Source of the DNA: Clostridia bacterium
Lineage (GTDB): Bacteria > CBDUZB01 > JAGLHV01
Assembly: GCA_030595925.1 (NCBI GenBank)
Contig: JAUVLC010000136.1
Coordinates: 1-5,821 of the forward strand
Reading direction: 5' to 3'
Length of the DNA stretch: 5,821 nucleotides
Part shown: positions 1 to 4,709 of the stretch, piece by piece
Position numbering within the stretch: the first letter of the stretch is position 1
How the letters are laid out: each line of letters starts with the position of its first letter
The notes under the pieces: generated by a model
Database searches by the model: none
Seen by the model: the letters and a program-made list of their open reading frames with translations, nothing else
Told to the model about the DNA's origin: nothing
Position numbers and translations under genes: made by a program

Positions 1-1818
1 GTTAATCAAGTCCCCGGCTCTTTCGCAGTCTTCTACCAGCCGGTCAAAGACTTTGCCGGCGGATATGGATTCCAGCTGGTTGCGGTCTCCCACCAGAATT
101 ATTTTGTCTTTGCTTTTTTCGGCTAGCTTAAAGAGTTTGGATGCATTTCTTGAGTCCAGCATGCTGGCTTCGTCAAAGATGATTACCCTCTTTTTTTGTT
201 CCTTTGTTTTGCTTTCTCTTTTAAGTTTTCTTTCTTGCGATAAAAAGGAGCTGAGCGTGATTGATTTTATGCTGGTTTCTTCTTCCAGATTTTTAGCCGT
301 AACCCCTTGCATAGCCAAACCGATAACTTCAAATCCTCTTTCTTTGTAAAAGTCACCGGTGGTTTTTAATGCAGTGGTTTTGCCACTGCCGGCGTCTCCT
401 TGAACAACGGTTAGAAGGGTGTTAGATACAATCATTTTTTGCACGGCTAACGATTGGATATCGGAAAGCGTTCTTTCGCTTTTGGCTCTTTTCGCTTTAC
501 GCTCTCCTTCAACGATTTTTGAAACTTCTAAAGGATCTAATTTTTCCCAACCTAAAGATGTTCCGCTGGCGTTCATATATTCCCGGTCGGCTTTAACCAT
601 TTCCCATGAAGTATATCTGCCTTTTTCCAGCTCTATGATATAGCCCATATTTACTTGCTCGTTTAATTTGACTAGGGCTTCCTGATAGGTTATATCTTCC
701 CATTTTTCATCGTGCATACGTTCGGCAAGGTATTCGGTAATGACTGCTTGTTGGGAAGACGAGGCACTTTTTTCCGTGGCTCTTCGAATGGCTAACTGCC
801 ATTTTTCCGATTCGCTGGTGTTGTTCCGGTAATTGTTTCTTTCGTGAAAGGCTTCGATTGACCATTCGGCTTTATTTGACCAGTCCTGCCGGTTGGTTTT
901 TGTCTGCTCTTTATTTTGTTCTTCGGTTTTGGTATTGGTTCGTTCTGCCTTGGCTTGCCAGCCCTTAGTTATTTCATCTTTCGGGCTTTTTGGGGATTTT
1001 TCTTTTCTGGTTTTTCTCCAGGCGTCCATATCCCTTTTGCCTTCGGCTTTGGCTTCTAATATCTGTTGTCTGCGGGTAGAAAAAATCAGCTCGGTTTGAT
1101 GAGCGATTTTATCTAATCGCCACTCTCCGCCTTTGGTGTAGCTGATGTTATAACCTAAATTTTTCAAGCGGGAAGCCAGCCGGGTGCGGTACATAGTTCC
1201 CCACAATTTATTAAAGTCTTGAGATAAAATTTCCCTACTGCGTAAAGCCATGATTTTGTTTTCGTATTCGGTTAAATTGGTTACAACCACATGGGTATGC
1301 AGTTGCGGATCGTGTTCCCTATTGAAGCCGTCCCGGACAGTGATGTAACACATTTTTCCGGTGCGGACATCTACCCCGGCTTTTGGTTGGGCCATGGCGT
1401 GCCGTTCTTCAATTTCTTTCATTACCTCTAAAACTGTTTGGTCATGGGCTTTGATGATTTCCGAGTTTTTGTCGGTTACCAATCCGGCAATGCTTACGGT
1501 TTTGGGTGCGGAAAATGTAAAGTCAATTCCCTTGACTTTATGTTTTCTACTGCGTTGAGTTCCGGAGGCGTCTTTGCCGTTTAAGAGGTTTAAAAATACC
1601 TGTTCACTGATTGCTTGACCATCCTTTAACCCCATTGTATTACAGAGTTTGCCATTGACTTGCACATGGTCAAGTGTTTCGTCTGAAATTACAGAAAGTC
1701 CTTTATCTCGTAAGATATCGGCAAGTCCTTCGGATTGTTTAAAGTAGTAATTTTCTTGGTGGGTGTGGTATTCAACAAGCCCTTGAGGGTCACCTAATAA
1801 TTTCATTGTGGTTAGCAT
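1..1818 (-). CDS. MobF-family (TrwC/TraI-type) conjugative relaxase-helicase, N-terminal 606 residues, cut by window edge
   Basis: This cytoplasmic enzyme nicks oriT DNA, stays covalently bound to the 5' end and unwinds the plasmid for conjugation. The frame is open without interruption from the ATG at 1818 to base 1, so the C-terminus lies outside the window. Visible in the translation: candidate catalytic tyrosines Y17 and the Y24-Y25 pair (context ENYYF); DFTFSAPKTVS at 99-109, typical of MobF relaxases; the metal-binding HUH motif DPQLHTH with H174 and H176; a charged linker at about 260-350; then a RecD-like SF1 helicase with Walker A GDAGSGKTT at 474-482, Walker B DEASM at 549-553 and motif III GDRNQL at 577-582. 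The start is supported by an AGGT ribosome site about seven bases upstream and by the short distance to the tyrosines. D163 occupies the place of the usual first metal-binding histidine. Family members usually exceed 900 residues. The family assignment is very secure. Confidence 0.96.
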   Translation of the reverse strand, partial: MLTTMKLLGDPQGLVEYHTHQENYYFKQSEGLADILRDKGLSVISDETLDHVQVNGKLCNTMGLKDGQAISEQVFLNLLNGKDASGTQRSRKHKVKGIDFTFSAPKTVSIAGLVTDKNSEIIKAHDQTVLEVMKEIEERHAMAQPKAGVDVRTGKMCYITVRDGFNREHDPQLHTHVVVTNLTEYENKIMALRSREILSQDFNKLWGTMYRTRLASRLKNLGYNISYTKGGEWRLDKIAHQTELIFSTRRQQILEAKAEGKRDMDAWRKTRKEKSPKSPKDEITKGWQAKAERTNTKTEEQNKEQTKTNRQDWSNKAEWSIEAFHERNNYRNNTSESEKWQLAIRRATEKSASSSQQAVITEYLAERMHDEKWEDITYQEALVKLNEQVNMGYIIELEKGRYTSWEMVKADREYMNASGTSLGWEKLDPLEVSKIVEGERKAKRAKSERTLSDIQSLAVQKMIVSNTLLTVVQGDAGSGKTTALKTTGDFYKERGFEVIGLAMQGVTAKNLEEETSIKSITLSSFLSQERKLKRESKTKEQKKRVIIFDEASMLDSRNASKLFKLAEKSKDKIILVGDRNQLESISAGKVFDRLVEDCERAGDLIN

Positions 1819-2193: not shown

Positions 2194-2844
2194 CTATAAA
2201 ATTATTAAAGTCAAGAATTTCTTCATCCTTTTCCGTAAACTGGATTTTTCCTTAATTATGGGAATTTCCAATTCTTCACTTTCAACTTCGAGTTCAATTT
2301 TCTTTCTCCATCGAACTGGGTTAACTAGGATCCATGTTTGTATAATTGCATACACATCGAACAAAAATAGACATAGACCAACATTTTTATAAGAGATGCT
2401 GAAAAAATAATGATAAGCAAACCCAATGGCAAATACATTTAATAACAGGAATATTCCACGAACATGGAAAAAGTGTAGATTTGATTTCCATTTCGACTCT
2501 CTATCATAGTAGTTCTGGCAAAATGTTTCCCATCCTAATCCTGAGAAGTGTGGTTCTATTTTATGCTGAATGTATTCTCCGATAAGTACAATCATCCTAT
2601 CATGATTTGACCATCCAATGGCTAGGAGAAGCAGTAGAAAAGGAATAAGTGAAAAGATATGAAAGCTTTGTTGCGGATCTTTAATTCCTATTTTAATGCC
2701 TAGGGCAAAGAGAGTCCCTGAAGTAATAAATGATAGGTGCACTAGGAATTGCTGACCCGTAGAACGCTGCATTATTTCTTCTCTAAGTCTAGAAAATTCA
2801 ATTAATGCTCCTTCATCTTTTATATTCTGATTAAATTCAGACAT
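2194..2844 (-). CDS. Four-helix inner-membrane protein of unknown function, under a GEMM-I riboswitch
   Basis: A 216-residue protein with a soluble N-terminus, four predicted transmembrane helices (about 33-52, 63-79, 128-148 and 154-174) and a charged, basic C-terminal tail rich in E and K. The conserved-looking segments are EFSRLREEIMQR (16-27), GWSNHDRMIVLIGEYI (77-92) and IEPHFSGLGWE (96-106). From memory this pattern recurs in uncharacterised bacterial membrane proteins, but I cannot name a family. The long loop between helices 2 and 3 (80-127) is the likely functional part. A GAGGG sequence 11 bases before the ATG is a somewhat distant ribosome site. The gene lies downstream of a strong promoter, a riboswitch and a terminator, with a 116-base leader after the terminator. 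Control by a cyclic dinucleotide suggests an envelope, signalling or lifestyle role; this is inference only. The gene is secure, its function open. Confidence 0.85.
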   Translation of the reverse strand: MSEFNQNIKDEGALIEFSRLREEIMQRSTGQQFLVHLSFITSGTLFALGIKIGIKDPQQSFHIFSLIPFLLLLLAIGWSNHDRMIVLIGEYIQHKIEPHFSGLGWETFCQNYYDRESKWKSNLHFFHVRGIFLLLNVFAIGFAYHYFFSISYKNVGLCLFLFDVYAIIQTWILVNPVRWRKKIELEVESEELEIPIIKEKSSLRKRMKKFLTLIIL

Positions 2845-2960
2845 TGATTAACATACCCTCTTTTCCATTCTTTGATTTTGATTACTAATAAATGCAGTAG
2901 CATGCTTCTGCTTCCAAAAGAACTATTAGTGCATTTTTGTAATAGAAAAAAAAACACAAT

Positions 2961-3002
2961 TAAAAAGCGACTTGCCACCTATCTTTAGGTAACTGAGTCG
3001 GT
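2961..3002 (-). terminator. Intrinsic terminator of the riboswitch (expression platform)
   Basis: On the minus strand an outer stem CGACT/AGTCG encloses a perfect inner hairpin ACCTA-AAGA-TAGGT, followed by five T at 2965-2961 and a second nine-base T run about ten bases on. It lies about 20 bases after the aptamer and before the 216-residue gene, so read-through decides whether that gene is expressed. The 5' half (2985-2993) can instead pair with the P2 strand of the aptamer. Confidence 0.8.
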
Positions 3003-3019
3003 TATTGTTTATCTTTATT

Positions 3020-3110
3020 TATTGTCTTCGGTAGCTCGGCGATCACAAGAATTTTCCTCCAGACCCGTAGCTTTGCGTCCCCTAATTTCTTAAGGTTTGC
3101 CTTTTCGGAT
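3020..3110 (-). promoter_or_regulatory. GEMM-I (class I cyclic-di-GMP) riboswitch aptamer
   Basis: The minus strand carries the hallmark blocks of this RNA class in order: GGCAAACC (3101-3094), a P2 hairpin CCTTAA-GAAA-TTAGGGG with a GNRA-type tetraloop, the invariant GACGCAAAGC (3079-3070), then GAGCTACCGAAG at the 3' side (about 3037-3026). The P3 stem is self-consistent: AGCT-A-CGG on the 5' side pairs with CCG-AGCT on the 3' side, with a bulged A. The base I align with G20 of the Vibrio Vc2 aptamer is G, which favours c-di-GMP over 3',3'-cGAMP, though that alignment is by eye. The flanking P1 helix is not clear here. A consensus promoter lies just upstream and an intrinsic terminator just downstream, so control is probably transcriptional. 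Confidence 0.93.
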
Positions 3111-3133
3111 TTATTATGTTCTTTACATCAATA

Positions 3134-3162
3134 AATGTATCCCAGCTTTATTTGTTTGTCAA
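3134..3162 (-). promoter_or_regulatory. sigma70-type promoter for the riboswitch and 216-residue gene
   Basis: TTGACA (3162-3157), a 17-base spacer and TACATT (3139-3134) on the minus strand. The start site would fall near 3127, about 20 bases before the aptamer. The TTGA of the -35 box belongs to the end of module copy 1 and the remaining CA lies outside it, so the promoter straddles the repeat boundary. Confidence 0.75.
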
Positions 3163-3398
3163 GGAGTAAATTTTCTTATAGGGTAACAGGAAAAGTTTGT
3201 TTGCGGAGTGGGAAAAAACCGGAGTGGAAATGTTTAATGTTTGTAGTTTGTTTGGGGAGTGATAACGGAGCAAAGTATCTGGTGAACGGATTTCTTGCGT
3301 AAGCAAGAAAAAAATGTTTTTGAGTGTTAACGAAAAATCATTTTGGGAACGAACAAACATTAAATAAAACGGAGCGGAGTGTTTGGAGGCGGGGGGTA
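3160..3398 (-). other. Structured C-rich tail of module copy 1
   Basis: Non-coding tail after the 86-residue gene. It has a perfect 12-base inverted repeat, TTTAATGTTTGT (3233-3244) with ACAAACATTAAA (3353-3364), enclosing a perfect 8-bp hairpin, TTTCTTGC-GTAA-GCAAGAAA (3291-3310). On the minus strand it is C-rich and G-poor and carries degenerate repeats of CACTCCGCAAACAAACT. It could be a Rho-dependent terminator or a structured 3' end. An open frame crosses it, but I do not call it a gene. Confidence 0.55.
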
Positions 3399-3659
3399 TT
3401 AGAATTTGTTTTTAAATAAAACATAAAGAAGCAAAGCCATGCCGATAATAAAAAGGGGGTAGTTTGCTTTCCTTAAATATGGTATATACTTATTACAAAG
3501 GTCTCTCTTGAAAAAGAAAATAAGAGCATGCAAAATAAGGAGAATTGTAAGAAATAAAACTATAATTGTCCTACCGGTAAACCCGTAAGTAACTAAATTA
3601 TAAATAGTGAGGTAAATCATCCATGCATAAATAAGAAAAAATAATATAATTAATTTCAT
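3399..3659 (-). CDS. Small three-helix membrane protein, module copy 1
   Basis: An 86-residue, strongly hydrophobic protein with likely membrane helices at about 3-24, 30-50 and 66-82. A short basic loop (KRDLCNKYIPYLRK, 51-64) between helices 2 and 3 is the only extended polar part. The ATG has a good ribosome site, AAGGA, about six bases upstream. It is 78 of 86 residues identical to the copy at 4384-4644; the coding frame has no indels and about half the base changes are silent, which suggests both copies are or recently were under selection. It starts 52 bases after the second lipoprotein and may be co-transcribed with it, although a hairpin (3677-3708) lies between. I recognise no family. 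A small holin-like or envelope-accessory protein is possible but unsupported. Confidence 0.75.
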   Translation of the reverse strand: MKLIILFFLIYAWMIYLTIYNLVTYGFTGRTIIVLFLTILLILHALIFFFKRDLCNKYIPYLRKANYPLFIIGMALLLYVLFKNKF

Positions 3660-3676
3660 AATTTCCTTGAAAACTC

Positions 3677-4160: not shown

Positions 4161-4383
4161 GGAGAAAGTCAACAGGAAAAAGTTTGTTTGTGGTGTGGGG
4201 AAAAACCGGAGTGGAATTGTTTAATGTTTGCAGTTTGTTTGCGGAGTGAAAACGGAGCAAAGTAACTGGTGAACAGATTTCTTGTGTGAGCAAGAAAAAA
4301 ATGTTTTTGAGTGTTAACGAAAAATCTTTTGGTGAACGAACAAACATTAAATAAAATGGAGCGGAGTGTTTGGGGTGGGGGTA
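4161..4383 (-). other. Structured C-rich tail of module copy 2
   Basis: Hand count over 4161-4390 on the minus strand: about 70 C against 18 G. It keeps an 11-base inverted repeat, TTTAATGTTTG (4220-4230) with CAAACATTAAA (4341-4351), enclosing a hairpin TTTCTTGT-GTGA-GCAAGAAA (4278-4297). The one stem change relative to copy 1 (C to T) gives a G-U wobble in plus-strand RNA but an A-C mismatch in minus-strand RNA. CACTCCG-type repeats recur as in copy 1. Confidence 0.55.
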
Positions 4384-4644
4384 TTAGAATTTGTTTTTAA
4401 ATAAAGCATAAAGAAGTAAAGCCATGCCGATAAAAAAAGGGGGGTAGTTTGCTTTCCTTAAATATGGTATATACTTATCACAAAGGTCTCTCTTGAAAAA
4501 GAAAATAAGAGCGTGTAAAATAAGTAAAAGTGTAAGAAACAAAACTATAATTGTCCTAACTGTAAACCCGCAAGTAACTAAATTATAAATAGTGAGATAA
4601 ATCATCCAGGCATAAATAAGAAAAAATAATATAATCGTTTTCAT
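4384..4644 (-). CDS. Small three-helix membrane protein, module copy 2
   Basis: 86 residues, the paralogue of 3399-3659, differing at residues 3, 25, 29, 39, 56, 69, 71 and 80. The three hydrophobic segments and the basic KRDLCDKYIPYLRK loop are kept; one change puts a second proline at the start of helix 3 (YPP). The ribosome site is weaker than in copy 1 (AAGAAAA instead of AAGGAAA). No promoter is obvious between the attC-like site and this gene, so it probably depends on read-through from the lipoprotein gene upstream, as in a promoterless cassette. Function unknown. Confidence 0.75.
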   Translation of the reverse strand: MKTIILFFLIYAWMIYLTIYNLVTCGFTVRTIIVLFLTLLLILHALIFFFKRDLCDKYIPYLRKANYPPFFIGMALLLYALFKNKF

Positions 4645-4709
4645 AATTTTCTTAAAACTTCCTATTTATTCTTTTTTGTGTACCTTAGGCTTATGTACGT
4701 TTCATTTAT

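Follow-up and report, generated by a model that had tools for sequence, protein, structure and literature searches.

The window, one whole contig of 5,821 bases (C48) in a 2.6-Mb draft genome, carries on its minus strand a genuine c-di-GMP-I (GEMM-I) riboswitch, which adds one ordinary example of an established class from a little-known phylum. We consider it probable that this element works by transcription termination as an OFF switch, in which the terminator 5' strand (T) most likely invades the P3 5' strand of the aptamer, and that the switch is weak and OFF-biased. The aptamer, the terminator, the promoter, their layout and the comparison with paralogs were computed; ligand binding, switching direction, the partner strand and the bias are what we infer.

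Architecture of the riboswitch

The elements of the window referred to below are, in the direction of transcription:

3134–3162, minus strand: sigma-70-like promoter TTGACA-17-TACATT (10/12 consensus; TTGACA and a similar −10 are conserved in three paralogs)
3026–3110, minus strand: c-di-GMP-I (GEMM-I) aptamer (RF03167, 66.7 bits; RF01051, 75.1 bits)
3101, minus strand: G at the G20 position, as in c-di-GMP-type and not cGAMP-type aptamers (sequence and CM alignment)
3080–3095, minus strand: P2 hairpin CCUUAA-GAAA-UUAGGG (CM alignment and fold)
3077–3085, minus strand: P2 3' strand UUAGGGGAC, proposed earlier as the partner of 2993–2985 (present; complementarity at chance level)
3074, minus strand: A at the A47 position, against a G in the RF03167 consensus (CM alignment)
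3059–3072, minus strand: P3 5' strand AGCUACGGGUCUGG, able to pair with 3001–2991 (11 bp, two bulges) by folding; the same element appears to covary with the terminator in paralogs
3031, minus strand: C at the C92 position, the Watson-Crick partner of the ligand (sequence; mapped by eye)
2985–3001, minus strand: terminator 5' strand (T), the candidate competing strand (folding of growing transcripts, constrained energies)
2968–3000, minus strand: intrinsic terminator hairpin (−14 kcal/mol, z −4.85)
2962–2966, minus strand: U5 tract 3' of the hairpin, with one C between (sequence)
2946–2954, minus strand: second U tract, U9 (sequence)
2194–2844, minus strand: downstream ORF for a 216-aa predicted membrane protein of no known family (sequence; profile searches)

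The intrinsic terminator noted in the preliminary description is evident: none of 200 shuffles matched the energy of the 3000–2968 hairpin, which is followed by the C and the U5 tract. The hairpin shares no strand with the aptamer but has a 5' strand of its own, and predicted folds contain both structures side by side. Upstream, a near-palindrome, TACATTTATTGATGTA, at window 3124–3139 overlaps the promoter −10 and is nearly kept in the closest paralog; it is a possible operator.

Aptamer identity and predicted ligand

When all Rfam families were compared, the sole match in the window was a member of the c-di-GMP-I clan on the minus strand (3110–3026), and the element is a real c-di-GMP-I aptamer. 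The conserved blocks and the GAAA-capped P2 lie where they had been described, and the RF01051 search with Infernal that had been named as a check on them returned a score that is far from poor (75.1 bits against a gathering score of 35, E 6.2e-15, 3111–3027). The window shares with RF01051 the aptamer sequence, the structure, the pocket letters and a terminator directly downstream. Members of that family serve motility, pilus or surface genes, whereas the window copy precedes the gene of an unclassified membrane protein near a MobF relaxase.

The letters expected in the ligand pocket, G20, A47 and C92 in Vc2 numbering, are all present (G 3101, A 3074, C 3031). The assignment of 3101 to the G20 position follows Vc2 numbering in part, and that of the A47 position likewise. 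The ligand could be 3',3'-cGAMP or another variant dinucleotide instead of c-di-GMP, a reading that draws on the fact that the lowest E-value in the clan belongs to a variant family, c-di-GMP-I-GGC (RF03167; 66.7 bits, E 1.3e-14, 3110–3026), whose gathering score of 59 bits the window aptamer also passes. However, the same aptamer gains more bits from RF01051 (75.1 versus 66.7). It has G at 3101 in place of the A at the G20 position that marks the cGAMP-binding GEMM-Ib type, and the RF03167 consensus G within GACGCGAA, presumably the letter that defines the GGC variant to judge from the family name, is an A in the window (GACGCAAA). On these pocket letters we rejected a cGAMP or GGC-variant identity, and a variant ligand is highly improbable; by its sequence, the aptamer fits ordinary c-di-GMP-I better than either alternative. 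It is predicted to bind c-di-GMP, and the host genome encodes nine GGDEF domains. In the experimentally studied Cd1 riboswitch, G11 is the counterpart of the G20 position and C87 that of C92 (PMC9262584).

Terminator layouts in the genus and the direction of switching

Our sample of the phylum comprises three genomes of one genus, with 18 (host), 12 and 12 c-di-GMP-I riboswitch matches above the cut-off, and the terminator search covered 43 riboswitch places in them. Two layouts recur. In the ON-type layout, seen at 13 or more places, the 3' strand of the aptamer doubles as the 5' strand of the terminator, which starts 14–19 bases ahead of the aptamer end. In the OFF-type layout, that of the window and about 18 other places, the terminator has its own 5' strand and starts 14–32 bases after the aptamer. 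Three genomes with 12–18 sensors each and both layouts among them form a natural set for asking how the same aptamer can be connected to opposite outcomes, and this family of copies is of more interest than the window element, which is ordinary in isolation.

The terminator of the window lies apart from the aptamer, as in the OFF-type and unlike the ON-type paralogs, and by this analogy the window switch is likely to be OFF. Reference points are provided by two characterized riboswitches, Cd1 of Clostridioides difficile, an OFF switch, and pilM of Geobacter metallireducens, an ON switch (PMC9262584). Cd1 shares with the window a stand-alone terminator able to coexist with the aptamer, such that ligand is expected to favour termination. 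The pilM riboswitch has the same aptamer class, and its layout is found in the ON-type paralogs of the host genome; the window terminator, unlike that of pilM, spares the aptamer 3' strand, which is why the opposite direction is expected. That c-di-GMP instead promotes read-through here, in a pilM-type ON switch, is very unlikely. It is the layout of many paralogs in the host genome, and GCUACC, the 3' strand of the aptamer, might base-pair with GGUGGC in the 3' strand of the terminator, but the terminator of the window possesses a separate 5' strand and its predicted folds leave the aptamer in place.

For the OFF switch that we favour, RNA polymerase would start some 15–20 nt upstream of the aptamer. 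With c-di-GMP bound, P2 and P3 would stay closed, leaving T (3001–2985) free for its 3' strand, and the terminator thus formed would stop transcription before the membrane-protein gene. Without ligand, T would invade the aptamer, most likely at the P3 5' strand (3072–3059), allowing read-through.

Across the genus, T often reads like a duplicate of the aptamer 3' strand, as in CCGGGUUACC versus CCGGAUUAUCC. In six GEMM-I loci (L017, L055, L056, L013, L058 and L019) spread over all three species, the aptamer 3' strand occurs twice, tens of bases apart, the second copy being the terminator 5' strand; this doubling suggests that two strands compete to close one aptamer. Some aptamers among the 43 places (G000–G002) have AAGCAAA or GGUAAA in place of GGCAAA. 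These changes fall at or beside the ligand-selective G20 position, and the ligand preference of such aptamers may differ.

Partner of the terminator 5' strand

The preliminary description had presented a readable OFF-switch mechanism, in which the P2 3' strand UUAGGGGAC (3085–3077) pairs in the ligand-free state with GUUACCUAA (2993–2985) of the terminator 5' strand. The class, the terminator and the OFF layout hold, the direction being supported indirectly by the separate, Cd1-like terminator, whereas this particular antiterminator does not, and "readable" overstates the case. The complementarity itself is present as described (8/9 positions, one G-U). A 9-mer this complementary to the aptamer is found, however, in 34% of shuffled terminator 5' strands, and the local duplex energy is equally good in 53% of them. 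Upon folding by transcript length, the pairing never exceeds 10% of the ensemble, a share it has when the strand is just exposed, and vanishes as the terminator 3' strand emerges. Co-folding, which had been suggested as a check, favours the intact aptamer plus terminator and leaves the P2 3':T fold minor; under four energy parameter sets, its 5-bp core lies 1.1–2.4 kcal/mol above the intact aptamer.

Comparison with paralogs places the P2 3' strand as the predicted main partner of T in 0 of the 19 OFF-type copies examined. In the closest paralog (G000:C183), both strands are unchanged and the predicted energy of a fold with this helix comes to within 0.4 kcal/mol of the optimum, but the helix is missing from C142 and C333, the paralogs next in similarity, where T pairs with GGCAAACC instead; no covariation is available for it. 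With chance complementarity, ensemble share, constrained energies, the four energy sets and the paralogs all leaving it unsupported, we rejected the P2 3':T antiterminator as our model and regard an OFF switch of this kind as unlikely.

An invasion of the P3 5' strand by T, the route that we prefer, is indicated by the other OFF-type copies. When growing transcripts of the 18 OFF-type paralogs are folded, 6–21 bp are expected between T and the aptamer until the hairpin is complete, and T is mostly released thereafter; its partner is mostly the P3 5' strand together with the neighbouring P3 3' strand, and GGCAAACC in C142 and C333. Among 14 distinct P3 5'/T heptamer pairs in paralogs, 91.8% of positions form standard pairs versus 86.7% in shuffles, and both-side changes occupy 8 cells versus 2.7; either value is reached by 1/500 shuffles, in a set made up of related paralogs and with a P3 5' strand that also pairs inside the aptamer. 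The covariation thus favours the P3 5':T helix as support rather than proof. The switching strand of Cd1 pairs with the aptamer 3' strand (PMC9262584), whereas the candidate partner in the window is the P3 5' strand, as in the related copies of the genus.

Energetics of the window switch

At full T length, the intact aptamer of the window is predicted at −19.6 kcal/mol, the P2 3':T fold at −17.3 (5-bp core) or −17.1 kcal/mol (all 8 bp) and the 11-bp P3 5':T fold at −16.9 kcal/mol; by these model energies, the P3 5':T pairing of the window is about as weak as the P2 3':T pairing. The intact aptamer beats the best form of every alternative by 0.9–2.7 kcal/mol under the four parameter sets, although gaps of 1–3 kcal/mol are near model error and the model energies leave out tertiary contacts and kinetics. 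A Cd1-type OFF switch calls for an antiterminator that, until the terminator is complete, is no less stable than the ligand-free aptamer; in predicted folds, the window antiterminators fall short of this, by a margin near model error, whereas that of paralog C183 reaches it, and C183 is predicted to switch more strongly.

Pairing between aptamer and T in the window amounts to 2.4 bp, versus a mean of 5.8 in pair-preserving terminator shuffles, 83% of which do as well; all 18 paralogs lie above their own shuffle averages. Placing the C183 aptamer before the window T restored the predicted pairing (10.5 bp), which assigns the cause of the weak pairing to the window aptamer. The window P3 is stronger than that of C183 (GCU/AGC versus ACU/GGU). 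With invasion predicted to be this weak, the switch is probably biased towards OFF, and the window copy is expected to be closer to OFF than its relatives; given pairing below the shuffle mean and an intact aptamer as the most stable fold, the ligand-free state may also terminate.

Carried to its end, this bias would give an intact aptamer in a nearly locked switch, whose terminator forms with or without ligand and which acts mainly as an attenuator. We hold this to be possible, though clearly less probable than a weak but working switch. The low aptamer:T pairing and its recovery with the C183 aptamer point in this direction, as does the best fold at nearly all lengths, which is the intact aptamer plus terminator. 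The energy differences involved are, however, of the size of the model error, and the aptamer and terminator are well kept, including an exchange of P3 G-C to A-U between the two closest copies, a conservation that suggests selection for binding.

Paralogous cassettes and downstream genes

The closest paralog, C183, shares 86% identity with the window across 262 bases; the match begins upstream of the promoter and ends at the terminator U tract. C142 and G002:C333 belong to the subgroup as well but are less similar (79%). The genes that follow differ. In C142, the riboswitch is followed by the gene of a 309-aa protein without an assigned family, and in C333 by the first part of a similar gene. 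The C183 cassette leads into the genes of a PDDEXK nuclease (matching PADLOC PDC-S02, E 5e-44) and a dCTP deaminase (PADLOC dCTPase, E 1.4e-94). The operon of these two genes (L065:3664-7072) encodes candidate anti-phage proteins, the deaminase being AvcD-like; a dCTP deaminase of this kind is known as AvcD in Vibrio (PMC10511110). We tentatively suggest that the promoter, riboswitch and terminator have been copied as a cassette before unrelated accessory genes, with c-di-GMP gating defence or mobile cargo and T invading the P3 5' strand as the antiterminator. If confirmed, the C183 paralog would tie the c-di-GMP level to phage defence via a riboswitch. A literature search of limited extent found no report of a c-di-GMP riboswitch before a dCTP-deaminase defence gene; in C. 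difficile, c-di-GMP-I riboswitches adjoin antisense antitoxins of type I toxin-antitoxin systems (reviewed in PMC11477304).

Searches of Pfam, NCBIfam and PADLOC gave no significant match for the predicted 216-aa membrane protein encoded downstream of the window riboswitch. One homolog was detected among 386 genomes (30% identity), together with one weak Streptomyces plasmid match; none was found in phages, and the viral contigs searched held neither relatives of the protein nor the exact riboswitch patterns. An AlphaFold model built from the one sequence has a mean pLDDT of 50. On the same strand, 3' of the membrane-protein ORF, lies a MobF/TrwC relaxase-helicase gene (window 1–1818, cut by the contig end), and with this relaxase downstream, the membrane-protein gene is probably on a mobile element.

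The region upstream of the relaxase gene is 87% identical to a stretch on contig C143 of G000, which also holds a similar relaxase start. On that contig, the riboswitch promoter region recurs ahead of a DUF4136 lipoprotein gene, with no aptamer (L064:3397-3455; 59 bases, 85% identical). Just upstream of the window riboswitch, a direct duplication of ~480 bases (window 3191–3672 and 4178–4657; 91–93% identical) carries an 86-aa membrane ORF in each copy.
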